25,160 bases of DNA from a virus, in the IMG/VR virus record IMGVR_UViG_3300032334_002107, positions 1-25,160 of that record. One strand, 5' to 3'. The position numbers and the translations under genes are program-made. The notes below the pieces were generated by a model, which saw nothing but the letters and a program-made list of their open reading frames with translations, was not told the origin of the DNA and did not search any database. Shown here piece after piece: positions 1,285-24,470 of this stretch (its first letter is position 1; each line of letters begins with the position of its first letter).

Positions 1285-1721
1285 TGACAGAGACAGTTAT
1301 AGTAACGGAAGTTGTTAATGATGTAATTATTTCCTCTCCAGGACCACAAGGACCCAGAGGTAAATCAATATTAAATGGTAATGGAGTTCCTGCAGAAAAC
1401 CTAGGGCTTGAAGGAGATTTTTACTATGATAAATCTACAACAAGATTCTATGGCCCAAAACCAACAGATGCTACATGGGCTGGAGCAACCAACTATCTTT
1501 TAAGTACAAGCACACTTACATATCCGTTCTCAATCAGTCAGGTTACAAATCAAGGATCGTACTGGGCCCTTGAAATAACACATAATATGGGCTATAACCC
1601 AAACGTGACCGTAAAGAACAGCGCAGGCGATATATTAGAAACTGGAATAGACTATAATAGTATTAACAAAATAACACTGACAATGGCTCAACCATTCGGT
1701 GGGATAGCTTACCTATCCTAA
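1284..1721 (+). CDS. Short tail fibre/tip protein with collagen-like kink
   Basis: This 145-residue protein has an N-terminal anchor strand (TETVIVTEVVNDVIISSPG), a two-triplet collagen-like bit (GPQGPRG, about residues 20-26), a short aromatic module (LEGDFYYDKSTTRFYGPK) and a C-terminal domain. The C-terminal domain has the signature EITHNMGYNPNVTVKNSAGD and ends GGIAYLS. Many phage tail fibres carry this 'THN-G-x-P-x-V-V' terminal domain, and the gene at 1735 has a cognate version (VTHNLGARDVTVQVYD). It is coupled to the upstream gene and probably forms one small appendage with it. It recognises no known substrate that I can identify. Confidence 0.55.
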   Translation: MTETVIVTEVVNDVIISSPGPQGPRGKSILNGNGVPAENLGLEGDFYYDKSTTRFYGPKPTDATWAGATNYLLSTSTLTYPFSISQVTNQGSYWALEITHNMGYNPNVTVKNSAGDILETGIDYNSINKITLTMAQPFGGIAYLS

Positions 1722-1734
1722 AGGAGAATAGAAA

Positions 1735-3030
1735 ATGGCAAGATTATTTGTAACTGATATCAATCTTAATAAGAATGAGCTTCAGAATGCCAGAATTCAG
1801 GGATTGAGCACAGCTCCATCGGCACCTGTATCTGGACAGATTTATTACAACAACGCAGACAATGTGATGTACTACTACAATGGACTTACATCACCAAATG
1901 GCCCATGGATGCCAATGTCTGGTTCTACAGAAGTTATTCAAGATGTAATTGGATCAACAATTGTTGGCGGAACAGGTATTACAGCAACCTACGGGGACCC
2001 AGCTGGTACTGAAACAATTTCTATTACAAATACTGGAGTAACTGCAGGTTCTTATGGATCGCAAACAGCAATTCCAACATTTACAGTTAACGCTCAAGGT
2101 CAATTAACTGCAGCAGGAACAGTAACAGTAGCAACTGTGCTTTCTATTGCTGGAGAAACTGGCACAGATACAGTAAATCTTCTTACAGATACATTAACTG
2201 TAACAGGAGATGCCGCAATTGATACAGCGGTAACAAATAATACTATTACCATTACTGCAAAAGATGCAACTTCATCAGTAAAGGGTGTTGCTTCATTTGA
2301 TTCAACAGACTTTACAGTAACAGCAGGAGCAGTAACACTTAATAAAGATCCAGTAATTACTCTTACAGGAGATGTAACTGGTTCTGGCACAATGACAAAT
2401 CTTGGCAGTGTTTCAATTGCCACAACAGTACAGCCAAACTCTGTAGCACTTGGAACAGATACAACTGGCGATTATGTACAAAACATTTTAGGTACAACAA
2501 ATGAAGTAACTGTTAGCCCAACATCTGGAGAAGGAACTACAGTAACAATTGGTCTTCCAGATGATGTAACTGTTACTAACAACTTGACAGTTGGTGGAAA
2601 CCTCAATGTAACAGGAACAATCAACTCAGTAAATACTACTCAGGTAAATATTGTTGATAATAAGATTAATCTTAACACCGACTTTACAGGAAGCCCAACA
2701 GCAGATGCTGGTATCCGTGTAGAGCGTGGCACAGGCGCAGATGTAGAAGTACTATGGAATGAAACAGATGATCGATGGACATTAACAAATAATGGTACCA
2801 ACTATCATGCAATCACAAGAAAGTATTCAACAACCATTGGAAATGGTTCTTTAACACAAGTACCAGTCACACACAACTTGGGTGCACGGGATGTTACAGT
2901 TCAAGTTTATGATAGTTCAACATTTGATACAGTAGAATGCGACGTAGTGAGAACTTCAACTTCTGTTGTAACACTAGGATTCACAGTCGCACCTGCAGCT
3001 GGAGCATATACGGTAGTAATCGTAGGATAA
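1735..3030 (+). CDS. Tail fibre shaft protein
   Basis: This 431-residue, Thr/Val/Gly-rich fibre has several modules. Residues about 34-62 are a small aromatic module (GQIYYNNADNVMYYYNG, ending WMPM). Residues 66-130 hold a repeat common in tail fibres (GGTGITATYGD, then GVTAGSYGSQTAIPTFTVNAQG). Residues 205-300 form a beta-helix-like shaft, with TGDVTGSGTMTN, SVALGTDTTGDYV and NLTVGGNLNVTGTINS. Residues 305-362 include QVNIVDNKINLNTD and the C-terminal 363-431 is the VTHNLG-type tip. Shine-Dalgarno AAAGGAGA lies eight bases before ATG. The composition and motif order match T4-like and other aquatic phage fibres. The receptor is unknown. Confidence 0.7.
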   Translation: MARLFVTDINLNKNELQNARIQGLSTAPSAPVSGQIYYNNADNVMYYYNGLTSPNGPWMPMSGSTEVIQDVIGSTIVGGTGITATYGDPAGTETISITNTGVTAGSYGSQTAIPTFTVNAQGQLTAAGTVTVATVLSIAGETGTDTVNLLTDTLTVTGDAAIDTAVTNNTITITAKDATSSVKGVASFDSTDFTVTAGAVTLNKDPVITLTGDVTGSGTMTNLGSVSIATTVQPNSVALGTDTTGDYVQNILGTTNEVTVSPTSGEGTTVTIGLPDDVTVTNNLTVGGNLNVTGTINSVNTTQVNIVDNKINLNTDFTGSPTADAGIRVERGTGADVEVLWNETDDRWTLTNNGTNYHAITRKYSTTIGNGSLTQVPVTHNLGARDVTVQVYDSSTFDTVECDVVRTSTSVVTLGFTVAPAAGAYTVVIVG

Positions 3031-3041
3031 GGGGGCAATAG

Positions 3042-3299
3042 ATGTCTGTAAAAAGATTAGTCCCTTTACATGCAGTAGTTTTAGATAGCGATCCAACTGC
3101 AACCCGCATGGGTGAAATTTATTTTAACTCTGTAGATTCAGAGTTGAGATTTTATGATGGAACATCATGGCTTCCAATTGGTTCTGGCGGAATGGTTAGT
3201 GGACTTCTTGATCATATTCATACTTATGATGGAGCAGTATTCTCTGTTGAAACAGTAGAAGTAAATGCATCAGGCACAGTTGATGGGGGAACCCCATAA
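3042..3299 (+). CDS. Small tail-associated protein sharing the fibre N-terminal module
   Basis: This 85-residue protein contains GEIYFNSVDSELRFYDG followed by SWLPIGSGG. The same module occurs near the start of the fibre at 1735 (GQIYYNNADNVMYYYNG then WMPM), suggesting a stand-alone copy of a fibre-docking or trimerisation module. The strong Shine-Dalgarno AAGGGGG precedes ATG. The stop overlaps the start of the next fibre gene (TAATG), so the two are probably made in fixed ratio. I do not recognise a defined family. Confidence 0.5.
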   Translation: MSVKRLVPLHAVVLDSDPTATRMGEIYFNSVDSELRFYDGTSWLPIGSGGMVSGLLDHIHTYDGAVFSVETVEVNASGTVDGGTP

Positions 3300-4558
3300 T
3301 GGCTCTAGTAATCAAACTAAGACGTGGTACAACAGGACAATGGTCAACATCTTCAAGAGTTCTTCAAATAGGCGAACTTGGATTAGATACAACATTAAAT
3401 AAAATTAAATCAGGCGATGGAACATCTCTATGGGGATCATTGCCTTTCTTAAATGTACTTCCATCTGAACTTACAGAGCTTTCTCAAGATGCGGTAAATG
3501 CAGCATTGGTTGCAGGAACTGGATTATCAAAAACATATAACGATGGCGCTAATACAATTACTTTAAATGTTGACACAGCAACAATTGCAACAACAAATTA
3601 TGTAGATAGCGCAATTACAGGAGTAAATAACCAGTCAGGAACTACATATGTTCTTGTATCAGATGTAGGATCTGCAGATGGAGTTGCTTCATTAGGCCCA
3701 GATGGTAAAATTCCAGATTCAGAAATTCCCGCCGCAATTGCAAGAGATTCAGAGTTATCTTCACATACATCTGCAAGTACAAGCGTACATGGTATAGCAG
3801 ATACATCAGCATTGGCTACAAAAACATATGCAGACAATGCAGCCTCTACAGCTGCCGCTGCAGTAGTAGCAGCAGCACCTACAGCATTAAATACTTTAAA
3901 CGAATTAGCAGCCGCATTAGGAAATGATGCTTCATATGCCTCAACTATTACAACAGCACTAGGCACAAAAGCTCCAATTGCTTCACCTACATTTACTGGA
4001 ACAGTCGGCGGAGTTACAAAAGCAATGGTAGGATTAGAAAACGTTGACAATACAACAGATGCTAATAAGCCTATTTCAACTGCAACACAAACTGCCCTTG
4101 ACCTTAAGCTTGCTTCAGCCACTGCAGCCACCACATATGCTCCAATTGCTTCTCCAACATTTACTGGAACAGTCGGCGGAGTTACAAAAGCAATGGTAGG
4201 TCTTTCAGACGTAGACAATGTTTCTACAGCAACAATTTATTCAAATCAATATGTATTAGTAACAGGAACAAGCAGAACTATAAACTCAACAACAGATAAG
4301 TTTAATGTTGTAGAATTTAACTCTAGTAATCCTATTACAGTAACTATTCCAAATGACACACAAGATGCTGGATGGCCAGTAGGTTCATCTGTTGAAATCC
4401 GTCAAATTGGAACAGGCCAAATTTCAATTGCTAAAGATGCAGCAGTCACATACTATGCTCCAGATTCACAATTTAAATCAAGAGTTCAATGGAGCTCATT
4501 ATTTTTAGAAAAACGTGCAGCCAATTCATGGCTTGTTACGGGCGATGCCACAGCATAG
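3299..4558 (+). CDS. Tail fibre with major-tropism-determinant-type N-terminal domain
   Basis: The first 51 residues (IKLRRGTTGQWSTSS through GELGLDTTLNKIKSGDG to WGSLPFL) match the short N-terminal domain of major tropism determinant and many other phage fibres, which attaches the fibre to the virion. The shaft contains ASLGPDGKIPDSEIP (about 125-140), VHGIADTSALATK, an Ala-rich segment ending TLNELAAALGND, and two near-identical copies of PIASPTFTGTVGGVTKAMVG (residues 225-245 and 281-301). The C-terminal ~100 residues (VEFNSSNPITVTIPND, VEIRQIGTGQISI, ending VTGD) form a common fibre-tip domain. Total length is 419 residues. No reverse transcriptase or variable-repeat signature is present, so the Mtd-like N-terminus does not imply a diversity-generating retroelement. 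Confidence 0.72.
   Translation: MALVIKLRRGTTGQWSTSSRVLQIGELGLDTTLNKIKSGDGTSLWGSLPFLNVLPSELTELSQDAVNAALVAGTGLSKTYNDGANTITLNVDTATIATTNYVDSAITGVNNQSGTTYVLVSDVGSADGVASLGPDGKIPDSEIPAAIARDSELSSHTSASTSVHGIADTSALATKTYADNAASTAAAAVVAAAPTALNTLNELAAALGNDASYASTITTALGTKAPIASPTFTGTVGGVTKAMVGLENVDNTTDANKPISTATQTALDLKLASATAATTYAPIASPTFTGTVGGVTKAMVGLSDVDNVSTATIYSNQYVLVTGTSRTINSTTDKFNVVEFNSSNPITVTIPNDTQDAGWPVGSSVEIRQIGTGQISIAKDAAVTYYAPDSQFKSRVQWSSLFLEKRAANSWLVTGDATA
3971..4200 (+). repeat. Intragenic direct repeat of 62 bp, copies 168 bp apart
   Basis: Copies at 3971-4032 and 4139-4200 differ at only two positions. Both encode the fibre repeat APIASPTFTGTVGGVTKAMVG in the gene at 3299. The offset of 168 bp is a multiple of three, so recombination between copies would remove or add 56 residues of shaft without breaking the frame. 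Confidence 0.85.
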
Positions 4559-4566
4559 GACAAAAT

Positions 4567-4800
4567 ATGACAAACAACGTACAACCACCACTTCCTCCAA
4601 TGAAGGTAGCTTTTATTTTGGACGGAAGAGTTCAAGAGATGCTACATACGGATAATAAACTAGCAGCAATTTTTTTAAGCGAGCCAGTAGTTGTAGATAT
4701 TACAAATAGAACAGATGCAACTATATATGCTCAGTATGATAAAGAAACAGATACATTTACACCAGCAGTTTATAACGAAAATGGAGAGCTAATAGGTTAA
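4567..4800 (+). CDS. Small conserved phage protein of unknown function
   Basis: Starting at the ATG at 4567, the product is 77 residues (MTNNVQPPLPPMKVAFILDG to NENGELIG). A longer in-frame start at 4489 would overlap the preceding fibre by 70 bases and is unlikely. The core VAFILDGRVQEMLHTDNKLAAIFLSEPVVVDIT resembles small proteins found beside fibre genes in aquatic phages; they have no assigned role. It lies 8 bases after the Mtd-type fibre and overlaps the next start (TAATG). It may be a fibre chaperone or accessory, but this is conjecture from position. Confidence 0.6.
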   Translation: MTNNVQPPLPPMKVAFILDGRVQEMLHTDNKLAAIFLSEPVVVDITNRTDATIYAQYDKETDTFTPAVYNENGELIG

Positions 4801-6146
4801 TGAAAAGATCCGCAAAAAGAAGAGTTTTTACCACAAGGCTTAAGGCCTTTAATTCTTTTTCGGACACATTTTCTACATCGACAACAAAAAGCGGATGGAA
4901 AACTTTATCTGGAACATGGACATCGGGATCAAATGCATTTTCTAGCTCTTCTGGCTCTGCTCTTGCTATAGTTCCTCTTTCAAAATCTAATGCAACAGTT
5001 TCTACTATTATACCTTCAGGCGGAGGTACTGGAGTAGCATTCTGGGCGCTAGACTCAAGCAATTATTGGGCGGCTTACGGATATTCTACTTCATCAACTT
5101 CTTCTACATGCTCAAGCGCAGCTTGCTCAGGAACTGAAAATTATACAGTTACACAAAGTTGCTCTTGCCCATTTGCTGGATATTATTATCCATCAACTTG
5201 CGGCAATGGGGCTTGTTCTGGCTCTGAGAATTTTACCAATTATAGAAGCTGCTCGTGCAACACATCCTATGGAACATGTGCTCAGAATCAAGGAACTTGT
5301 GTATCTTCTCCAAATTACACAACTTGTTATTATCCATCAATTACTTGCGTATATACAGCAGGTAGCAGTAGCACAATATCTTTAGGTTGCTATTCAGCAT
5401 TTTCAGGATGCTCTTATTATTCATATCCCTACGGAGAAACACCCGCCCCAGGTATTTGTGGTTGTCCTACAGGATCTAATAAGGTATGTTGTACTCAAGT
5501 TGTAACAACTTCAGGATCTTGGAATAATGGCGCTTGCAGTTATAGTGGTCAAACAGTTAGTTCTTCAACACTAAGCCCTTCAGGATGTAGCTACCCAGGA
5601 CAATCAATTGCAACAGGAACATATTCATTTAATTATGGGTCTTGCAGTTATGCAGGACAACAAGTCAACATTGGTTGGAACTACGGCTCATGCTCATATG
5701 CAGGACAAGTTGTACCAACTGGAACAAGTTATACTTGTAGCAGTCAAGCATGTTCAGGTGTAGAAGCATTTACAGACTCTAGATCATGTTCTTGCCCACA
5801 AACAGCTTTATATTCTTCAACCTGTAATAACGGAGCATGCTCGGGAACATATAGTTATCAAGCTTCAAGAAGCTGCTCATGTACAACTAATTATGCAAGA
5901 AAAGTAAGAGTAGTTAAATATATTAGCGGTTCCCCAACAACAGTTGGAGAATTTACAGTATCTTCAATGCCAACAACAATTTCTGTATTAACCAATGGAA
6001 CTTCAGTCACCGTAACTGGCTCAGGCTCATCTAATACATATACAAATTCAGACGGGACAACTTACAAGAATTTTGGTATACTTAAAACAGACGGCGGGGC
6101 AGAGCAATCAACAGCGATATCCTCATTTACCGCCCTGGTCAGTTAG
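4800..6146 (+). CDS. LamG-like tail protein with a large 30-cysteine repeat block inserted in it
   Basis: This 448-residue protein begins with a basic N-terminus (MKRSAKRR). Residues about 18-98 look like the first half of a LamG/concanavalin-type domain (DTFSTSTTKSGWKTLSGTW through GVAFWALDSSNYWAAYGY). Residues 366-448 look like its second half (VRVVKYISGSPTTVGEFTV through FGILKTDGG, ending AISSFTALVS). Between them, residues 104-361 contain 30 cysteines and the flanks contain none. Four copies of C-x4-C-S-G-x8-S-C-S-C begin at C104, C134, C313 and C342, bracketing four copies of C-S-Y-x-G-Q (at 246, 263, 282, 298). Ser, Tyr, Gly and Asn dominate the block. It is probably a disulfide- or metal-stabilised protrusion on an adhesin, but I recognise no named family for the block. 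A zinc-ribbon-like gene follows six bases later. Confidence 0.6.
   Translation: MKRSAKRRVFTTRLKAFNSFSDTFSTSTTKSGWKTLSGTWTSGSNAFSSSSGSALAIVPLSKSNATVSTIIPSGGGTGVAFWALDSSNYWAAYGYSTSSTSSTCSSAACSGTENYTVTQSCSCPFAGYYYPSTCGNGACSGSENFTNYRSCSCNTSYGTCAQNQGTCVSSPNYTTCYYPSITCVYTAGSSSTISLGCYSAFSGCSYYSYPYGETPAPGICGCPTGSNKVCCTQVVTTSGSWNNGACSYSGQTVSSSTLSPSGCSYPGQSIATGTYSFNYGSCSYAGQQVNIGWNYGSCSYAGQVVPTGTSYTCSSQACSGVEAFTDSRSCSCPQTALYSSTCNNGACSGTYSYQASRSCSCTTNYARKVRVVKYISGSPTTVGEFTVSSMPTTISVLTNGTSVTVTGSGSSNTYTNSDGTTYKNFGILKTDGGAEQSTAISSFTALVS
5109..5882 (+). repeat. Cysteine-rich repeat block within the LamG-like gene
   Basis: It encodes residues 104-361. The outer pairs of the C-x4-C-S-G-x8-S-C-S-C repeat are spaced 30 and 29 residues apart, at the beginning (about 5109-5258) and end (about 5736-5882). 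Four C-S-Y-x-G-Q units fill the later middle (about 5535-5709). The repeats are clear in protein but diverged in DNA, so this is not a recent tandem expansion. Confidence 0.8.
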
Positions 6147-6152
6147 GCAGTT

Positions 6153-6398
6153 ATGAAAGATCCATTTGAAAGACCAGCAAGACCGTGGGACCTATTTAAT
6201 AAAAACCTAGGAAGAGTAGAGAATGAAATTTCTGCCAAAAGACTAGCAATTTGTAAAGAATGCCCACAATTTATAGACTTGACTTCGCAATGCAAAGAAT
6301 GCGGTTGTATTATGAATCTCAAGACTAAGTTACCAAATGCTGAGTGTCCACTTCACAAGTGGGGGCAAGAGCAGATTCCAATTGATAGAGAGTTATAG
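6153..6398 (+). CDS. Zinc-ribbon-like small protein (six-cysteine type)
   Basis: This 81-residue protein has the pattern C-x2-C-x9-C-x2-C-x-C-x12-C-P-L-x-K-W (CKECPQFIDLTSQCKECGC, then ECPLHKW), which suggests one or two bound zinc ions. The N-terminal ~35 residues (PFERPARPWDLFNKNLGRV) are extra compared with the paralogue at 20566-20730. Such small Cys-rich proteins occur among structural genes of many aquatic phages (DUF6171-like in my recall) without a defined role. It sits 6 bases after the Cys-rich adhesin gene and before a strong promoter. A role in folding, assembly or docking of the adhesin is possible but only inferred from this repeated gene order. Confidence 0.65.
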   Translation: MKDPFERPARPWDLFNKNLGRVENEISAKRLAICKECPQFIDLTSQCKECGCIMNLKTKLPNAECPLHKWGQEQIPIDREL

Positions 6399-6430: not shown

Positions 6431-7558
6431 ATGGCAACAAATTTCCCAACTAGCTTGGACGCTTTAACCAATCCTCAAGGAACTGATTCCGTACAGGCCG
6501 TACCTCACGCTGCCCAACACGCTAATGCTAATGATGCTATTGAAGCACTTCAAGCCAAGGTTGGAATTAATGGTTCAACAAATGCATCATCTCTTGATAA
6601 GCGTGTAGCAACCCTAGAAAATGCATCTGTAGATACAGAGGCAATTCAAGATATTGTAGCAGGAGTCCTAACTGCTGGAACCCACACAAATATTACTGTC
6701 ACATATGACGATACAGCAAATAAAATAAATTTAGCAGCTACATATAGCGATGAGCAGGTTATGGATGCTATTGCCACCGCTCTCACAGCAGGAACTGGCA
6801 TAACAAAAACCTATAATGATGCCGCAAATACAATTACTATTGCAGTTGATACCTCATCAATAGCAACTCAATCTTATGTAACTACAGCAATATCTAACTT
6901 AGTAAATTCAGCTCCTGGAGCACTAGACACATTAAATGAAATAGCAGCAGCTCTAGGAAATGATTCAAATTTTGCAACAACTATAACAAATGCACTTGCA
7001 CTTAAAGCGCCTTTAGCTTCACCAGCCTTAACTGGTACTCCAACGGCACCCACAGCTGGTAGTACAACAAATACAACTCAATTAGCAACAACAGCTTTTG
7101 TTCAAACAGCAAAAACTGCAGCAATAACTTCATCTAATTCTTATGCAGATGCAGCAGTAGCAAGTCTAGGTAACTCTATTGGTCAAGGATATGTTCCAAT
7201 AGGAGATATAGGGTCTGCAGATGGCGTAGCTGCCCTAGGCCCAGATGGATTTGTTCCAGATGCTCAATTAAATATAAATGAAAGAATTCAAGATGTAGCA
7301 TCAACTATGATTACAGCAGGAACACATTCAAATGTAACTGTTTCATATAATGATACGGCGGGCACACTAAGCTTTACTGGAATTCCTTTAACACAAGAGC
7401 AGGTACAAGATTTTATAGCCCCGCTTTTTGCACATAATAGTCACACAAATCTTATTGCTACATATGACGATACAAGCAATAAAGTAATTCTAGAAGCTTC
7501 AGGATCAGGATCAGGTTCTGGCGGAAGCTTAACAAATTCTTGGTTCTTGGGGGCATAA
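6431..7558 (+). CDS. Tail fibre shaft protein with hydrophobic C-terminal tail
   Basis: The 375-residue product opens with FPTSLDALTNPQGTDSVQAV, then HAAQHANANDAIEALQAKVG, an N-terminal motif very common in phage minor tail or fibre proteins. The shaft holds several copies of a repeat of type IQDIV-x5-TAGTHTNITVTYDDTANKI (about residues 76-104, 108-137 in shortened form, 288-317 and 321-350). It also has LDTLNEIAAALGND, TGTPTAPTAGSTTNTTQLATTAFVQ and VAALGPDGFVPDAQL segments. It ends in a Gly/Ser linker (SGSGSGSGGS) and a short hydrophobic tail (NSWFLGA), with no tip domain of its own. A small beta-sandwich gene starts two bases after the stop and may supply the cap. Confidence 0.7.
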   Translation: MATNFPTSLDALTNPQGTDSVQAVPHAAQHANANDAIEALQAKVGINGSTNASSLDKRVATLENASVDTEAIQDIVAGVLTAGTHTNITVTYDDTANKINLAATYSDEQVMDAIATALTAGTGITKTYNDAANTITIAVDTSSIATQSYVTTAISNLVNSAPGALDTLNEIAAALGNDSNFATTITNALALKAPLASPALTGTPTAPTAGSTTNTTQLATTAFVQTAKTAAITSSNSYADAAVASLGNSIGQGYVPIGDIGSADGVAALGPDGFVPDAQLNINERIQDVASTMITAGTHSNVTVSYNDTAGTLSFTGIPLTQEQVQDFIAPLFAHNSHTNLIATYDDTSNKVILEASGSGSGSGGSLTNSWFLGA

Positions 7559-14626: not shown

Positions 14627-15586
14627 ATGCCGTTTATAAATAGCGTAAGATCTTCATACGGATCTCAAGGTAGGTTTAATAGAAGAGGTAGTATATTGTC
14701 TACATCTACTGGTGGAACAATTACAACATCAGGTGGATATCGAATACATACATTTACATCTACAGGATCTTCAATATTTTTACCATCAGGATCTGGAACA
14801 ATTGAGTATTTGATTGTTGGCGGAGGCGGAGCTGGTGGAGATGATATTTCTGGCGGAGGCGGAGCTGGTGGATTTCTTACTGGAACAACTTCTGTTACTG
14901 CACAAAATTATACTATTGTAGTAGGTAATGGAGGCGCAGCAACATTAGGTTTTGAAGGATCTGGTCAAGGATTAAGTGGAGAAGATAGTAGTGCTTTTGG
15001 ACTTACCGCATTACGTGGTGGAGCAGGCGGCGGAGAAAGCACAAATGAAAGATTTGGTATTGGAACAAGCGGTACACATGCATCTGGCGGAGGTGGCGGT
15101 TATTCAGAAGCATCTGGAGGAAGCGGAACACCTGGTCAAGGAAATAGCGGTGGAAATAGCGTTGGAGGACAATGCGGAGGCGGCGGAGGCGCAAGCTCTG
15201 CTGGATCTTATGGTACTGTAAATGGTCGAGGAGGGAATGGTGGTTCTGGATTAGCTTCATCAATTTCTGGAACATCTTATTATTATGCAGGCGGAGGCGG
15301 AGGATCAGGATGGAGTTCTGCAACTGGTGCTGGTAATGGTGGCTCAGGCGGAGGCGGAGGCGGAGGCGGAGTAGGAAATACGTATGCCCTAAGCCCTGGG
15401 CTAGGAGATACTAATGGAAGAAACCCAGGTTTAAATGGAAATAATGGTGGAGTTCTAGGTAAAGGCGGAAATGCTGGTGCAAATACTGGAGGCGGAGGCG
15501 GAGGCGCAGGAGAATCAAACGCAACTTATCAATCTACTTCTGGAGCAGGAGGATCTGGCATTGTTATTGTCAGATATTTAGCATAA
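14627..15586 (+). CDS. Glycine-rich adhesin / receptor-binding tip, tandem copy 1
   Basis: The 319-residue protein starts with an anchor-like peptide (PFINSVRSSYGSQGRFNRRG), then IHTFTSTGSSIFLPSGSGTI and EYLIVGGGGAGGDD. A long Gly-rich body follows with runs such as GGGGAGG and ASGGGGGYSEASGG. It closes with GGSGIVIVRYLA, the usual end of the phage glycine-rich domain family. Related Gly-rich distal tips (for example gp38 of some T4-like phages) fold into polyglycine helices and bind the host surface; that is family knowledge, not seen directly. Shine-Dalgarno AAGGAGA is seven bases before ATG, right after the fibre at 12439, which it probably caps. Its stop overlaps the next, paralogous gene. 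Confidence 0.72.
   Translation: MPFINSVRSSYGSQGRFNRRGSILSTSTGGTITTSGGYRIHTFTSTGSSIFLPSGSGTIEYLIVGGGGAGGDDISGGGGAGGFLTGTTSVTAQNYTIVVGNGGAATLGFEGSGQGLSGEDSSAFGLTALRGGAGGGESTNERFGIGTSGTHASGGGGGYSEASGGSGTPGQGNSGGNSVGGQCGGGGGASSAGSYGTVNGRGGNGGSGLASSISGTSYYYAGGGGGSGWSSATGAGNGGSGGGGGGGGVGNTYALSPGLGDTNGRNPGLNGNNGGVLGKGGNAGANTGGGGGGAGESNATYQSTSGAGGSGIVIVRYLA
15347..15370 (+). repeat. GGCGGA hexamer tract
   Basis: Four perfect in-frame tandem GGCGGA units encode Gly-Gly pairs in the glycine-rich adhesin. Shorter tracts of the same unit occur at about 15292-15303 and 15488-15505. Slippage by one unit would add or remove two glycines. Confidence 0.85.
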
Positions 15587-16551
15587 TGCCGTTTATAAAT
15601 AGCGTAAGATCTACATATGGAGTACAAGGCAGGTTTCTTAAAACTGGATCCCCTCTTTCAACTTCTACTGGTGGAACAGTTAGCCTATATGGCACTTATA
15701 AAGTTCATACTTTTACAAATGTAGGTACAACACAATTTGTTGCATCAGGTGCAGGAACAATTGAGTATTTAATAATTGGCGGTGGTGGTGCAGGTGGAGA
15801 TGATATTGGAGCTGGCGGAGGAGCTGGCGGATATCTTTCTGGAACGACTACAGTAACAGCACAAACATATAACATTGTTATTGGTGCTGGTGGAGCATCT
15901 ACTCAAGGAAGTGAAGGAACAGGAAGAGGTTTAGATGGTAATAATACAACTGCATTTGGCTTAACAGCTTATAAGGGTAGCGCAGGAGGCGGTGAAGGAG
16001 AGTCTACAAGTTTTGGCGGAAGCGGAGTTTATGGATCAACAGGTGGAGCAGGATATAACATTGCATCAGCTGGAACACCAACAAGCGGTCAAGGTTATAA
16101 AGGTGGAGATACAATAGTTCAAGGTTATGCATCAGGCGGTGGTGGTGCAGGTGGGGCTGGAGCAAATGGTGGCAGCGGTAGCGGAAATGGTGGTCCAGGT
16201 TTATTGAATACAATTGATGGAAATTCTTATTACTATGCAGGAGGAGGCGGCGGCAACGCATATTCTGGAAGTTTAGGTGGTAATGGAGGAATTGGCGGTG
16301 GTGGAGGTTCAGGACCTGCTACAAATCCAGGCACTGGTCCAGTCGGCACTGGAGGAGGTTCTGCAAGAAATAATGGACAAAGCGGTTCTTCATCTGGCTC
16401 TCAAACATCTTTAACTTTTGGTAAAGGCGGAAATGCTGGTGCAAACACAGGTTCTGGCGGCGGTGGATCTACAGAGTCCAACAGTACTCCTCAACTTTCT
16501 AACTCAGGTGCTGGCGGATCAGGCATTGTAATAATTAGATATGTAGGATAA
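15586..16551 (+). CDS. Glycine-rich adhesin / receptor-binding tip, tandem copy 2
   Basis: This 321-residue protein has the same architecture as its upstream neighbour: PFINSVRSTYGVQGRFLKTG, VHTFTNVGTTQFVASGAGTI, EYLIIGGGGAGGDD, a Gly-rich body and the ending GGSGIVIIRYVG. The first 27 nucleotides of both genes are identical, although the rest has diverged, especially in the body loops, as expected for a duplicated tip whose binding surface is free to vary. Gly codons here favour GGT/GGA rather than the GGC/GGA tracts of copy 1. It starts on the TAATG overlap without its own Shine-Dalgarno, so it is presumably translated by coupling. Confidence 0.72.
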   Translation: MPFINSVRSTYGVQGRFLKTGSPLSTSTGGTVSLYGTYKVHTFTNVGTTQFVASGAGTIEYLIIGGGGAGGDDIGAGGGAGGYLSGTTTVTAQTYNIVIGAGGASTQGSEGTGRGLDGNNTTAFGLTAYKGSAGGGEGESTSFGGSGVYGSTGGAGYNIASAGTPTSGQGYKGGDTIVQGYASGGGGAGGAGANGGSGSGNGGPGLLNTIDGNSYYYAGGGGGNAYSGSLGGNGGIGGGGGSGPATNPGTGPVGTGGGSARNNGQSGSSSGSQTSLTFGKGGNAGANTGSGGGGSTESNSTPQLSNSGAGGSGIVIIRYVG

Positions 16552-18982: not shown

Positions 18983-19750
18983 ATGGCTACAGCCAGTTTA
19001 TCAACCTCAAGCATAAAAAATAACCTTAACAAGTACGGTAGTTTTGGAACAAATAATATATCTTCTCCAAAAAATTATCAGCCAGAGGGCACAACTAGGG
19101 TATTTTCTATGTCCTGTTCAAATGGATCCATAACGGCGGATGTTGGTTCATTTAATCAAATGGGGGCATTGTCTGTAGACTCACACACAAATTATATAAA
19201 TAAAACAAGAACATATTCTATAAGAGGATTTTCTCAGCCAACTAGTGGAAGTGGTGTTCCAGCTACTTCAAGTAATTCAATTGCTATGGAAAGTATTCCA
19301 GTTCTTAATGGAATTAACTACACATATTCTGTTTGGTATAAAGGAACTCAGTTAAGCGCTACCACTCAATCTTATTCTACCCCAGTTGCTATTTTTGGAG
19401 ACCCTAGAGGTTCTGTATATATGACATATGGGCTTTCATCTGGTAAAATAGCTCGTGGAAGCAACGGTGTTATTGAGGGTTCAACCATAGTTGCTAATGA
19501 CCAATGGAACATGCTTACATGGGTTTACAAGAGTTCAAATCAAATTGATGGGTATGTAAACGGAAATTTAGAAATATCTAATGCCAGTACTGCTTCAGCA
19601 AGCAATAACAACATTGACTACATTGGAGCTACCTACCCGTATGGCAATGTTGAGGGTCCTTATAGATTAGCTAGAATTCAACTTTATTCTCAAGCATTAA
19701 CACAATCTCAAATTGCAGAAATATATAACGCTGAAAGGTTGTATTTTTAA
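18983..19750 (+). CDS. LamG/concanavalin-like adhesin
   Basis: The 255-residue product has an N-terminal linker rich in Ser/Asn (SIKNNLNKYGSFGTNNISSP), then a single jelly-roll domain. Recognisable parts are INYTYSVWYKGTQLSA, PVAIFGDPRGSVYMTYGL, DQWNMLTWVYKSSNQIDGYV, NGNLEIS and YRLARIQLYSQALTQSQIAE, the typical LamG ending. It probably binds a cell-surface glycan as part of the appendage built on the 17143 fibre. It overlaps the next gene (TAATG). The start has only a weak ribosome site (TAGGTTTAAA), so it may be coupled to the gene before. Confidence 0.68.
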   Translation: MATASLSTSSIKNNLNKYGSFGTNNISSPKNYQPEGTTRVFSMSCSNGSITADVGSFNQMGALSVDSHTNYINKTRTYSIRGFSQPTSGSGVPATSSNSIAMESIPVLNGINYTYSVWYKGTQLSATTQSYSTPVAIFGDPRGSVYMTYGLSSGKIARGSNGVIEGSTIVANDQWNMLTWVYKSSNQIDGYVNGNLEISNASTASASNNNIDYIGATYPYGNVEGPYRLARIQLYSQALTQSQIAEIYNAERLYF

Positions 19751-20559
19751 TGAGCTCATCAAAATTTTCTCAGTACAGTATTTCTAAAAAAAGTAGAAGC
19801 GCAATGACTAGTGCTAATAGTTATGGCACTCAGTCTAACCCAGCTGTAAGCGGAGTAGATCTTTTTGATAGAGGATTTCGTACAAGTGGCGTTTATTGGA
19901 TTAATCCAACTGGAAACTATGCTTTTCCAGCATATATTATTTTAGACAGATATGATGGAGGATATGTAAAATTTCTTCAATATTTTAATGGAGTAGATTT
20001 AAGTGGATCGGGAGAAGTAAATAATAATGGTGCATGGACTTCTTCAGAAATTAATACAAGTGGTGCTGGTAAAATTAGAACAGCTGATATTACTGCATTA
20101 AATACAACACAATCATTTTTATGTCGTGTAACTGGAGGCAGTGACTCACTATTTAACAATGGCTCTGGAACGGCTAGATTTAGATATTTAAACGGATCTC
20201 TTCCTGCATGGGGAACAGACGCACAGCCTCAAATTGGAAACAAGTTTATTTGGGAATTAGATGTAACAAGCAACGGAACATTTGATCACTCTTATAGATA
20301 TGTAAATACTAGACTTAATGGTAGATGCAATCACTCAACTAGTATTTTTGTCGCTGATCATAATTCTCCACCAGATTCTGGAAGTGGTTGGCTAACCGCA
20401 ACAACTCCAGTATCAGTAGGAGCAGAGATATGCTGGACTTTTGGTGCAACTGGAGCATATACTAATTTGCACCCATGGAGCGGGAATTCGGTATCTTCAG
20501 GTGGCAATATTAACTGGGGTACTGGAAACGGTACCGCATGGGCTATGTTTATTAAGTAG
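19750..20559 (+). CDS. Putative fibrinogen-like (FReD-type) adhesin
   Basis: The 269-residue product starts with a basic Ser-rich peptide (SSSKFSQYSISKKSRSAMTS). A domain follows that opens DLFDRGFRTSGVYWINPTGN with AFPAYIILDRYDGGYVKFLQ, resembling the start of fibrinogen-related domains ('T-SGVYWI-P-G...Y..D..DGG...'). Later parts are WTSSEINTSGAGKIRTADIT, FIWELDVTSNGTFDHSYRYV and INWGTGNGTAWAMFIK; the Trp/Gly-rich close also suits that fold. It could equally be an unrelated beta-rich tip. The gene is coupled to the LamG gene (TAATG) and is followed by a zinc-ribbon gene. Confidence 0.5.
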   Translation: MSSSKFSQYSISKKSRSAMTSANSYGTQSNPAVSGVDLFDRGFRTSGVYWINPTGNYAFPAYIILDRYDGGYVKFLQYFNGVDLSGSGEVNNNGAWTSSEINTSGAGKIRTADITALNTTQSFLCRVTGGSDSLFNNGSGTARFRYLNGSLPAWGTDAQPQIGNKFIWELDVTSNGTFDHSYRYVNTRLNGRCNHSTSIFVADHNSPPDSGSGWLTATTPVSVGAEICWTFGATGAYTNLHPWSGNSVSSGGNINWGTGNGTAWAMFIK

Positions 20560-20565
20560 CCTAAA

Positions 20566-20730
20566 ATGTCATTAACAGAAATTACAAAAAAAGAATATGA
20601 CGCAAGATTAAGTATTTGTGAAGGCTGCCACGTATTTGATAAAATAATGTCAGTCTGTAAAAATTGCGGATGTGGGATGATATTAAAGGCTAAATGGCAA
20701 GAGTCTACTTGTCCGCTAGATAAGTGGTAA
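20566..20730 (+). CDS. Zinc-ribbon-like mini-protein (second paralogue)
   Basis: This 54-residue product begins MSLTEITKKEYDARLSICEG. It has the same pattern as the protein at 6153-6398: C-x2-C-x9-C-x2-C-x-C-x12-C-P-L-x-K-W (SVCKNCGCGMILKAKW, ending CPLDKW). It lacks the ~35-residue N-terminal extension of the other copy. It follows the fibrinogen-like gene by six bases, and its stop codon is part of the TAAAAT box for the next gene. The matching cysteines and the terminal CPL(D/H)KW make it a clear real gene despite its size. Confidence 0.75.
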   Translation: MSLTEITKKEYDARLSICEGCHVFDKIMSVCKNCGCGMILKAKWQESTCPLDKW

Positions 20731-22542: not shown

Positions 22543-22890
22543 ATGGATCTCAATAACCCTAAATACAAAGTGCTGGACGAAGAAACAAACCTAGGCATAT
22601 ATGTTTGGGAGATGCCTGACGGCAGATGGATTGGGGACGATGATGGCAATTTCCTTTCGGTCACAGCCAAAAAAGGAAATAAATCCAAGATCGATGCTCT
22701 ATCTAGAGAAGTTCGTTCATTTGGTATTTATGAGGGCGGGCCTAAATTTCTTTCTGGAAGAAGAAAAATTGACGATGAAGAATTCCAGTATCAAAAGCAA
22801 AGACTTGACTGGGGGCTAGTTCCAGACCCTATGGATATCGGTAACTATAAAGACGAAATGAAAAAATTAAACTTGGGTGGTATAAAATGA
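22543..22890 (+). CDS. Hypothetical protein preceding the portal gene
   Basis: The 115-residue, charged, soluble product contains KYKVLDEETNLGIYVWEMPD, GRWIGDDDGNFLSVTAKKGN, EVRSFGIYEGGPKFLSGRRK and LDWGLVPDPMDIGNYKDEMK. I do not recognise the family. It differs from the tail genes in being acidic and non-repetitive. Its stop overlaps the portal start by four bases (ATGA), so portal translation is probably coupled to it. This position suggests a head-assembly or packaging accessory, without direct evidence. Confidence 0.6.
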   Translation: MDLNNPKYKVLDEETNLGIYVWEMPDGRWIGDDDGNFLSVTAKKGNKSKIDALSREVRSFGIYEGGPKFLSGRRKIDDEEFQYQKQRLDWGLVPDPMDIGNYKDEMKKLNLGGIK

Positions 22891-24470
22891 GTGTAGAATT
22901 TCTTGATGACGATAACGCAGACAGCGTAATTAATATCTCTAACACAGCAGATTGGTTCTCCTTAAAAAAGGATGAAGTAAGCAATGATCCATTTGCGGTA
23001 GGAGTAGAGGAGCTAAAGAAGGTTAGAGGGCTAGGCTCTTCGTTTAAGCGCAAGGTAAGCAGAGAGTTTTCTAAATCATTTACAGGCGTAGAGTCAACGG
23101 GAACACAACAGAATTTACTAGCACAAGCTATTACAGGCTATGCTATGTTCGATTTAGTAGAGCCACCATACAACCTTGAATATCTTTCAAAAGTATACGA
23201 AATTTCAACATATAACTATGCAGCAATTAATGCAAAGGTTGCCAACATTGTTGGACTGGGATATGACTTTGTAGAAACAAAGAAAACAAATGATGCATTT
23301 GATTCAATCACAGATGATAAGGCTCTTGAAAGAGCACGTAGAAAGCTGAGTAAGCTAAGACAAGATATCCATGCGTGGCTAGATACTACAAATGATGAAG
23401 ACACTTTTACACAGACATTAATTAAAGTTTACACAGACCTTGAAGCAACAGGAAATGGTTACATTGAAGTAGGCAGAACAACAGGCGGAAACATCGGATA
23501 CATTGGACATATTCCAGCAAAGACAATGCGTGTTCGTAGACTAAGAGATGGCTTTATTCAATTGCTTTATGGCAAGGCTGTATACTTTAGCAACTTTGGT
23601 GATAAGGAAACAGAGAACCCAATTGCTGGTCAAGAAGATCGCCCAAATGAAATTATTCATTTAAAGAAGTACACCCCTATGAACAACTACTATGGATTGC
23701 CAGATATTGTGGCAGCTCAAGTGGCTCTGGCAGGTAATGAATTGTCAGGTAGATATAACCTTGATTATTTTGAAAACAAGGCGGTGCCAAGATATATTAT
23801 TACAGTAAAGGGAGCAAAGCTTTCACCAGAATCAGAAAGAAAATTGCTTGAGTTTTTTCAGGTTGGACTAAAGGGCAAGAATCACAGATCCCTATATATT
23901 CCACTTCCAGGAGATACGCCAGATTCAAAGACAGAATTTAAGATGGAGCCAGTGGAAGCAAACCCACAGGAATCTTCATTTAATGTTTATCGCAAATCTA
24001 ATAGAGACGAAATCCTATTAGCCCACCGTGTCCCAATTAATAAAATTGGAACTCCAGAAGGAGTTAATCTAGCGGTGGCTCGTGATGCAGATAAAACATT
24101 TAAAGAGCAGGTATGTCGTCCAGCACAAATGATTTTGGAAAAGAAAGTAAATAAAATATTTGAAGAAAAGACAGATGCTCTAGTCCTTAAATTTAATGAA
24201 TTGACTCTTACAGACGAAGATACTCAGTCTAAGATTGATGAAAGATATTTAAGAATGCAGGTAATTACCCCTAATGAAGTTAGAATTAGAAAGGGTATGA
24301 TTCCTCTTGACGGCGGAGACGATGTTATTGACCTAAAGGGTCAGGCGGCATCAGAACAGTTAGCCCAAGCTGGAAATACCAGACAAAGATCTCAAGATCG
24401 CCAGGCAACTGCCCCAGATAATTCTGGAGAAGGCAGAAATGCAAAGGGCGACGGCAGACAGGTTGACTAA
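22887..24470 (+). CDS. Phage portal protein (HK97/PBSX-like family)
   Basis: The 527-residue protein forms the dodecameric ring at the head vertex through which DNA enters and leaves. Family-typical stretches are YEISTYNYAAINAKVANIVG (about 104-123), DLEATGNGYIEVGRTTGG, IGHIPAKTMRVRR, EIIHLKKYTPMNNYYGLPDI, GNELSGRYNLDYFENKAVPR, SSFNVYRKSNRDEILLAHRV and PINKIGTPEG, with a late VITPNEVRIRKGMIPLDGGD. This order matches the PBSX/XkdE-type portal. The last ~40 residues are hydrophilic and low-complexity (RQRSQDRQATAPDNSGEG). The length is normal for the family. The start overlaps the upstream stop (ATGA). The XkdF-like protease downstream supports the call. The large terminase usually found just upstream is absent. 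Confidence 0.88.
   Translation: MSVEFLDDDNADSVINISNTADWFSLKKDEVSNDPFAVGVEELKKVRGLGSSFKRKVSREFSKSFTGVESTGTQQNLLAQAITGYAMFDLVEPPYNLEYLSKVYEISTYNYAAINAKVANIVGLGYDFVETKKTNDAFDSITDDKALERARRKLSKLRQDIHAWLDTTNDEDTFTQTLIKVYTDLEATGNGYIEVGRTTGGNIGYIGHIPAKTMRVRRLRDGFIQLLYGKAVYFSNFGDKETENPIAGQEDRPNEIIHLKKYTPMNNYYGLPDIVAAQVALAGNELSGRYNLDYFENKAVPRYIITVKGAKLSPESERKLLEFFQVGLKGKNHRSLYIPLPGDTPDSKTEFKMEPVEANPQESSFNVYRKSNRDEILLAHRVPINKIGTPEGVNLAVARDADKTFKEQVCRPAQMILEKKVNKIFEEKTDALVLKFNELTLTDEDTQSKIDERYLRMQVITPNEVRIRKGMIPLDGGDDVIDLKGQAASEQLAQAGNTRQRSQDRQATAPDNSGEGRNAKGDGRQVD

Follow-up and report, generated by a model that had tools for sequence, protein, structure and literature searches.

Phages change hosts by changing their adhesins, and the known rapid mechanism that does so through a single gene is the diversity-generating retroelement (DGR). 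The protein Mtd is diversified in this way and presents its hypervariable recognition part on a conserved tail-protein scaffold. Tentaclins, which are DGR-diversified phage receptor-binding proteins, likewise carry a hypervariable part on a conserved tail-protein scaffold (PMC10743442). Other phage tail receptor-binding domains include the C-terminal domain of the central fibre (gp20) of mycobacteriophage Douge (PDB 8ZDP/8ZDQ), whose recombinant form (CFP-tip-CTD) was reported to bind glycans and cells of mycobacteria (PMC13033339), and the receptor-binding domain of TM4 gp23 (PDB 9N6A). A beta-ribbon stalk combined with a disulfide-bonded knob, in which the number and position of cysteines vary, is found in the bovine ultralong CDR-H3 (PMC5994613). 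Tail proteins that combine a fixed scaffold with a hypervariable tip are thus known as a class of systems; for the architecture of the family reported here, we found no description in the literature searched. Open-licence papers on cysteine-rich or hypervariable phage adhesins contained no description of such a cysteine block, and the DGR-diversified tentaclins were the only relevant neighbour.

The window, by which we mean the whole stretch of DNA that was analysed, is a virus contig of 25,160 bases with a GC content of 39%. It encodes a portal protein (22887–24470) and a prohead protease (from 24524 on), and since this portal shares 55–60% identity with its counterparts in Streptomyces phages, for instance BillNye and Wakanda, the phage probably infects Actinobacteria, although this has not been demonstrated. 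The gene of interest is a forward-strand open reading frame (ORF; 4800–6146) that starts with ATG and encodes an adhesin of 448 amino acids. It lies in a tail-gene neighbourhood with a gene for an Mtd_N-type protein (3299–4558) and tail-fibre matches (6431–7558), and LamG proteins are found among the surrounding tail genes. We consider it probable that this adhesin carries a hypervariable, disulfide-bonded receptor-binding knob on a conserved tail-protein sandwich and that no DGR is involved; the disulfides, the geometry of the knob and the receptor are inferred.

All 30 cysteines of the adhesin fall between residues 104 and 361, and none lies outside (residues 104, 109, 121, 123, 134, 139, 151, 153, 160, 167, 176, 183, 197, 204, 220, 222, 230, 231, 246, 263, 282, 298, 313, 318, 330, 332, 342, 347, 359 and 361). 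The chance of finding all of them in a given stretch of 258 residues under random placement is approximately (258/448)^30 = 7e-8, and the remaining tail or virion ORFs in the window carry 0–4 cysteines apiece. As a cysteine block is kept at the same position in relatives from other contigs, it is neither due to chance nor an assembly artefact. The insert (residues 104–361; 5109–5882, forward strand, as are all adhesin features below) is delimited by this cysteine map, by its low model confidence and by its replacement in relatives. It contains exactly four copies of the motif C-x4-CSG-x8-SCSC, starting at residues 104, 134, 313 and 342, and four copies of CSYxGQ, starting at residues 246, 263, 282 and 298, an arrangement that the first-pass annotation had mapped without error. 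The former repeats, A1 to A4, span residues 104–123 (5109–5168), 134–153 (5199–5258), 313–332 (5736–5795) and 342–361 (5823–5882). Between A2 and A3 lie a non-repetitive centre, GCYSAFSGC ... CGCPTGSNKVCC (residues 197–231; 5388–5492), which is common to several relatives and is the proposed tip of the knob, and the four CSYxGQ units (residues 246–303; 5535–5708), with one cysteine each and with related units in the loci L004 and L002/L023.

To describe the parts flanking the insert, we used an AlphaFold2 model of the window protein that was built with 36 relatives. The pLDDT was 85–98 for residues 21–100 (mostly 93–98 over residues 31–100) and 93–98 for residues ~361–448, and it was below 50 for most of residues 130–342, which make up most of the insert. 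According to DSSP of the model, the insert sits between two long strands, namely 88–102 (5061–5105), the proposed ascending strand of a stalk, and 361–375, and we infer that these two pair with each other. Structure comparison matched the window model, over residues 16–448 (161 aligned), to single domains across both halves; the best match was the Douge central-fibre C-terminal domain (8ZDP residues 690–877, Z 18.4, rmsd 2.6), and CBM66 (Z 17.8, 149 aligned residues) and the TM4 gp23 receptor-binding domain (Z 16.6) also matched. A second model, of the relative L087 with an unrelated insert, showed the same fold with long strands at 91–105 and 238–252, including the 15-residue strand into the insert, and matched CBM66 (Z 17.3) and Douge (Z 16.5). 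The ranking obtained with Foldseek against the PDB was poor (best E 0.025), as is to be expected when half of a model is unstructured. In both models, despite their unrelated inserts, the two halves form one sandwich of the ConA-like/CBM66-type fold class, which establishes, at the level of predicted structure, that the scaffold is a one-domain fold. Its N-terminal half (residues 18–102; 4851–5105) is free of cysteines and is supported by pLDDT, by structure alignment and by an HMM of this half in 86 proteins, while its C-terminal half (residues 361–448; 5880–6143) begins with the long strand 361–375 and is supported by pLDDT and by the corresponding HMM.

The first-pass annotation had proposed that the flanks close into one beta-sandwich and that the block is a giant loop inserted into it. 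Both proposals are borne out, since both halves were modelled with high pLDDT and align together to single ConA-like/CBM66-type domains, and since the block lies between two long strands. Its label 'LamG-like' calls for one refinement: the Pfam LamG profile (Laminin_G_3) did not match the adhesin, even though it matched two other ORFs of the window, and the closest structures are CBM66 and phage receptor-binding domains. Likewise, the protein did not match the CBM66 family model and had no Pfam or PDB-sequence match. CBM66 of Bacillus subtilis (PDB 4B1M, 4AZZ), which shares the fold of the scaffold, is a cellular carbohydrate-binding module of 161–165 residues and too short for an insert of this type. 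The Douge and TM4 domains, which have the same sandwich across both window halves, are only 19% and 8% identical in sequence to the window adhesin, respectively, and, unlike it, have no cysteine-rich insert described in the literature searched. The domain class has many functions, which is a caveat to any fold match. Nevertheless, the idea of a receptor-binding protrusion gains support from a fold that resembles proven phage glycan-binding domains and from the hypervariability of the block; receptor binding itself remains an inference, as there are no data on virion incorporation or binding.

Searches of Pfam and PHROGs with the window protein returned nothing at E-values up to 1, PDB sequences contained no match either, and tblastn against 50,697 phage records was likewise negative. 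Neither a loop-free scaffold query nor one of the relatives matched cultured phages, and Pfam searches with ten relatives returned only an fn3 match in one of them. The first-pass annotation had recognised no named family for the block, and these searches placed the window protein in none. All relatives came from uncultured viral contigs. A first search yielded 2, a three-sequence alignment 14 loci, and scaffold-only or subgroup alignments more, until HMMs built from the two flanks retrieved 46 different proteins with both halves. A second, independent search anchored on the neighbouring gene provided 40 complete members, a few of which duplicate earlier ones. Of the resulting 86 relatives, none is found in cultured phages, Pfam or PHROGs; they represent 77 distinct inserts at 95% identity (31 of these clusters contain members of the second search only) and, by single linkage at 40%, 50 clusters. 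Members truncated at the end of a contig were left out of the cysteine counts. In all 86 the insert occupies the same point of the scaffold, and it ranges from 65 to 595 amino acids and from 0 to 64 cysteines and looks unrelated between members. The scaffold is nearly free of cysteines, with 8 in 16,121 scaffold residues versus 1838 in 16,512 insert residues (6 in 8756 versus 1104 in 10,126 for the first 46 proteins). A scan of genome contigs with the loop-free alignment found no relative, which is weak evidence of absence because it relied on one short peptide pattern. In BFVD, six uncharacterised proteins of uncultured Caudovirales, among them A0A6J5KM36, A0A6J5REI5 and A0A6J7WRS3, matched over the whole length (E 1e-9 to 1e-15) and very likely belong to the same family; they are unannotated, with nothing reported on an insert.

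In the relatives, other cysteine-rich or tyrosine-rich sequence takes the place of the window's insert. The type of repeat varies by locus, with CNNGxCSGSENYTATRSCSC in L001 and L004, CCSGV-type blocks in L006 and L009, CNCGS in L015 and CTHSGGSCGTTTTC in L017, and L013 and L083 contain a long tyrosine-rich insert with 2 and 0 cysteines, respectively. Given that a few inserts have only 0–2 cysteines, the design does not depend on disulfides. The centre GCYSAFSGC...CGCPxGxxKxCC is common to the window, L001/L005, L004 and L089, with different surrounding repeats, so that the insert can be regarded as a mosaic; L094 has the second half of such a centre. The window's repeat occurs in three members, each with as many copies before the centre as after it (2+2, 4+4 and 3+3), from which we infer, on only these three cases, that the repeats face each other along a two-strand stalk. 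In the proposed arrangement, the cysteine-free ConA/CBM66-type sandwich would be the mounting of a tail receptor-binding protein, and the giant insert between its two long neighbouring strands would be swapped or remodelled quickly between related phages. In the window subfamily, the insert would form a ribbon stalk that lengthens or shortens by matching numbers of repeats on both sides, topped by a knob at residues ~197–231. This knob may contact the host surface, and its Ser/Thr/Gly/Tyr/Cys-rich make-up might accommodate widely differing sequences provided that the cysteines stay paired. Stalk, knob and cysteine pairing are inferred and not visible in the model, where the insert has a pLDDT below 50. 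A by-eye likeness of the window repeat to thrombospondin-type repeats (C-x4-C-x-G-x8-C) was followed up and rejected, as there was neither a profile match nor a Trp ladder; for the window protein, Pfam gave no match to thrombospondin type 1, EGF or other named cysteine-rich repeats at E-values up to 1.

How such a block is stabilised can be approached through its cysteine numbers, which are even in the inserts of all 86 proteins. This regularity was first seen in the inserts found by the flank HMMs (46/46) and held again in those from the neighbour-gene search (40/40), which served as a test on data not used to spot the pattern. Low-cysteine ORFs elsewhere in the same loci have an even number in 88 of 143 cases (~60%), and 50 independent even counts at a base rate of 0.6 would have a probability near 1e-11, a figure meant as a guide only since the clusters are not fully independent. 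Moreover, cysteines are lost in twos between aligned relatives, from 18 to 16 in L058/L061 and from 26 to 24 in L039/L042, where the two sites are far apart; L005, L038, L076, L142 and L143 have one extra scaffold cysteine, which makes their total count odd. Even numbers and paired losses are what would be expected of a disulfide domain. Virion proteins are made in the reducing cytoplasm, and this, together with the frequent CC, CxC and CxxC spacings in the inserts (124, 173 and 185 cases) and with a neighbouring gene product that is itself a CxxC protein, would suit a metallothionein-like or zinc-cluster protrusion that is stable in the cell without oxidation. We find such a metal-binding block quite unlikely, since metal clusters need no even number of cysteines, since cysteine spacing differs between relatives, and since the insert composition (His 0.6%, Asp 1.7%, Glu 0.9%, Tyr 9.5%) is unlike that of metallothioneins. 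Of the two options left by the first-pass annotation, disulfides or metal, the all-even numbers thus favour the former and disfavour the latter. In the absence of oxidation data, we infer from the sequences that the insert is probably disulfide-bonded, which would amount to 15 disulfides in the window if all 30 cysteines pair. They would have to form once the virion has left the reducing cytoplasm, or else with the help of a phage-encoded partner, and the family raises the question of how up to 64 cysteines made in a reducing cell are folded. No dedicated thiol oxidase was found, but the Erv1/Alr search carries no weight because no control matched, and glutaredoxin and thioredoxin genes exceeded the cut-off in only 3 and 6 of 20 relatives' contigs, that is, not consistently.

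The variability of the insert is seen in L058 and L061, two near-identical contigs (99.1% and 97.8% identity over 1500 bases up- and downstream) in which the changes amount to 0.9% and 1.5% in the two scaffold halves and to 26.1% of bases plus gaps in the insert. In all nine close pairs the insert changed faster than the scaffold, by 1.8 to 21.6 times. A hypervariable part on a fixed tail-adhesin scaffold is the usual target of a DGR, as in Mtd of the Bordetella phage. Yet the L058/L061 differences comprise all substitution classes with no bias towards A, insert length varies, and no reverse transcriptase was detected in 20 contigs with family members or the neighbouring gene (21.7 to 109 kb, ~1.4 Mb in total, mostly fragmentary records), even though control genomes matched. 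With neither a reverse transcriptase in these mostly fragmentary records nor A-specific variation, the hallmarks of a DGR target were not found, and we rejected this origin as having almost no chance of being correct. What remains as a source of variation is recombination between inserts, or else very rapid change at this site. Could the insert instead be a disulfide-hardened stalk or spacer that stabilises the tail tip in water, and vary through drift and recombination of low-complexity repeats without selection on receptor recognition? Inserts are indeed rich in Ser, Thr and Gly with tandem repeats able to slip, close relatives vary in repeat number, and some inserts have few or no cysteines (L013, L083). 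Against this, changes between L058 and L061 are 20 times denser in the insert and seldom alter its length, which argues mainly for substitutions or replacement rather than slippage, and the scaffold resembles receptor-binding domains; we therefore regard a mere spacer as unlikely and retain the reading of a receptor-binding knob.

Directly downstream of the adhesin lies a gene for a small DUF6171-like protein (6153–6398, forward strand; PF19668, phrog_13558) of 81 amino acids with six cysteines in the pattern CxxC ... CxxCGC ... C, which passes the Pfam threshold (31.1 bits versus a cut-off of 27). The neighbourhood is conserved: of 45 evaluable loci, 39 have this gene as the next one downstream, no more than 50 nt from the adhesin, and in 42 the distance is at most 720 nt; two of the exceptions concern the adhesins with 2 and 0 cysteines, where the neighbour was not found and was 711 nt away, respectively. 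Conversely, 40 of the 79 loci found by the DUF6171-like gene had a complete family adhesin upstream, in 31 cases within 600 nt. Hypothetically, this protein may maintain the solubility of the cysteine block or act on its thiols ahead of assembly. The window carries a second DUF6171-like ORF (20566–20730, forward strand; 54 amino acids, six cysteines), absent from the list of ORFs of at least 60 amino acids, which directly follows a cysteine-poor adhesin-like ORF (19750–20559; 269 amino acids). The protein is hence not exclusive to cysteine-rich adhesins, and for this reason a role as thiol partner is only a guess. Furthermore, several cyanophages have the gene away from cysteine-rich adhesins. 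The cultured cyanophage S-SRM01 has, immediately upstream of the DUF6171-like gene, a gene annotated as a gp37-gp38 adhesin tip whose product contains a cysteine cluster, and S-CRES2 encodes a 53-cysteine protein two genes upstream. The DUF6171-like profile gave only weak matches to NSE1 zinc domains in the PDB, and DUF6171 was not mentioned in the open-licence literature searched.

The nearest functional parallel, by analogy only, is the bovine ultralong CDR-H3, which resembles the phage adhesin in outline with a fixed beta-sandwich, a two-strand stalk (merely proposed for the phage) and a disulfide-rich knob. It is an unrelated protein and fold without common descent, its loop reaches up to ~70 amino acids as compared to 65–595 in the phage family, and it is diversified somatically, whereas the phage insert varies between phage lineages. 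The difference from Mtd and the tentaclins is that no reverse transcriptase and no A-specific changes were found and that a whole cysteine-rich module varies in length and type. It is possible, though we put this forward only tentatively, that the family represents an undescribed, widespread and DGR-independent way of diversifying host recognition, in which disulfide-rich miniprotein cassettes are exchanged at one fixed site of a sandwich, aided by a dedicated DUF6171-like protein, as a phage counterpart of the cow knob. The family would then be a natural library of disulfide-rich binders and would offer a possible role for the uncharacterised DUF6171-like family. The all-even cysteine rule makes a sharp prediction that can be tested on any further sequence.

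Several proteins outside the family also deserve mention. In the same gene slot, L167, L181 and L182 encode Fibronectin-III-like tail proteins with cysteine-rich C-terminal tips (10, 14 and 10 cysteines), and the tips of L167 and L182 contain a C-x-x-GG-x-L-S-G-x-x-C-like motif that is also present in sandwich inserts; cysteine-rich tips may thus move between scaffolds. Upstream of the DUF6171-like gene, L175 encodes an 890-residue protein (1292–3973) with cysteine-rich repeats followed by an end that looks like an intein or Hint-type domain (CVEENTLVDTMDG ... FVNGMLVHNK). The L013 locus encodes another protein, of 245 amino acids with 36 cysteines and starting with MACAKGSCSGFCAGGCGGGC, which is of a different type from its 2-cysteine family adhesin. 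For L095 (Synechococcus phage S-CBS2 gp034), the annotation 'RNA polymerase-like protein' looks doubtful, as it has the DUF6171-like cysteine motif. Within the window, a 103-residue ORF just upstream of the adhesin (4489–4800, forward strand; its start is probably an internal ATG, MTNNVQPPLPP) is similar to a 90-residue protein of L002 (9277–9549) located downstream of the DUF6171-like gene, and thus appears to be a small conserved neighbour whose place in the gene order differs. Lastly, two adjacent Gly-rich adhesin-like proteins (14627–15586 and 15586–16551) both start with MPFINSVRS, an apparent tandem duplication.
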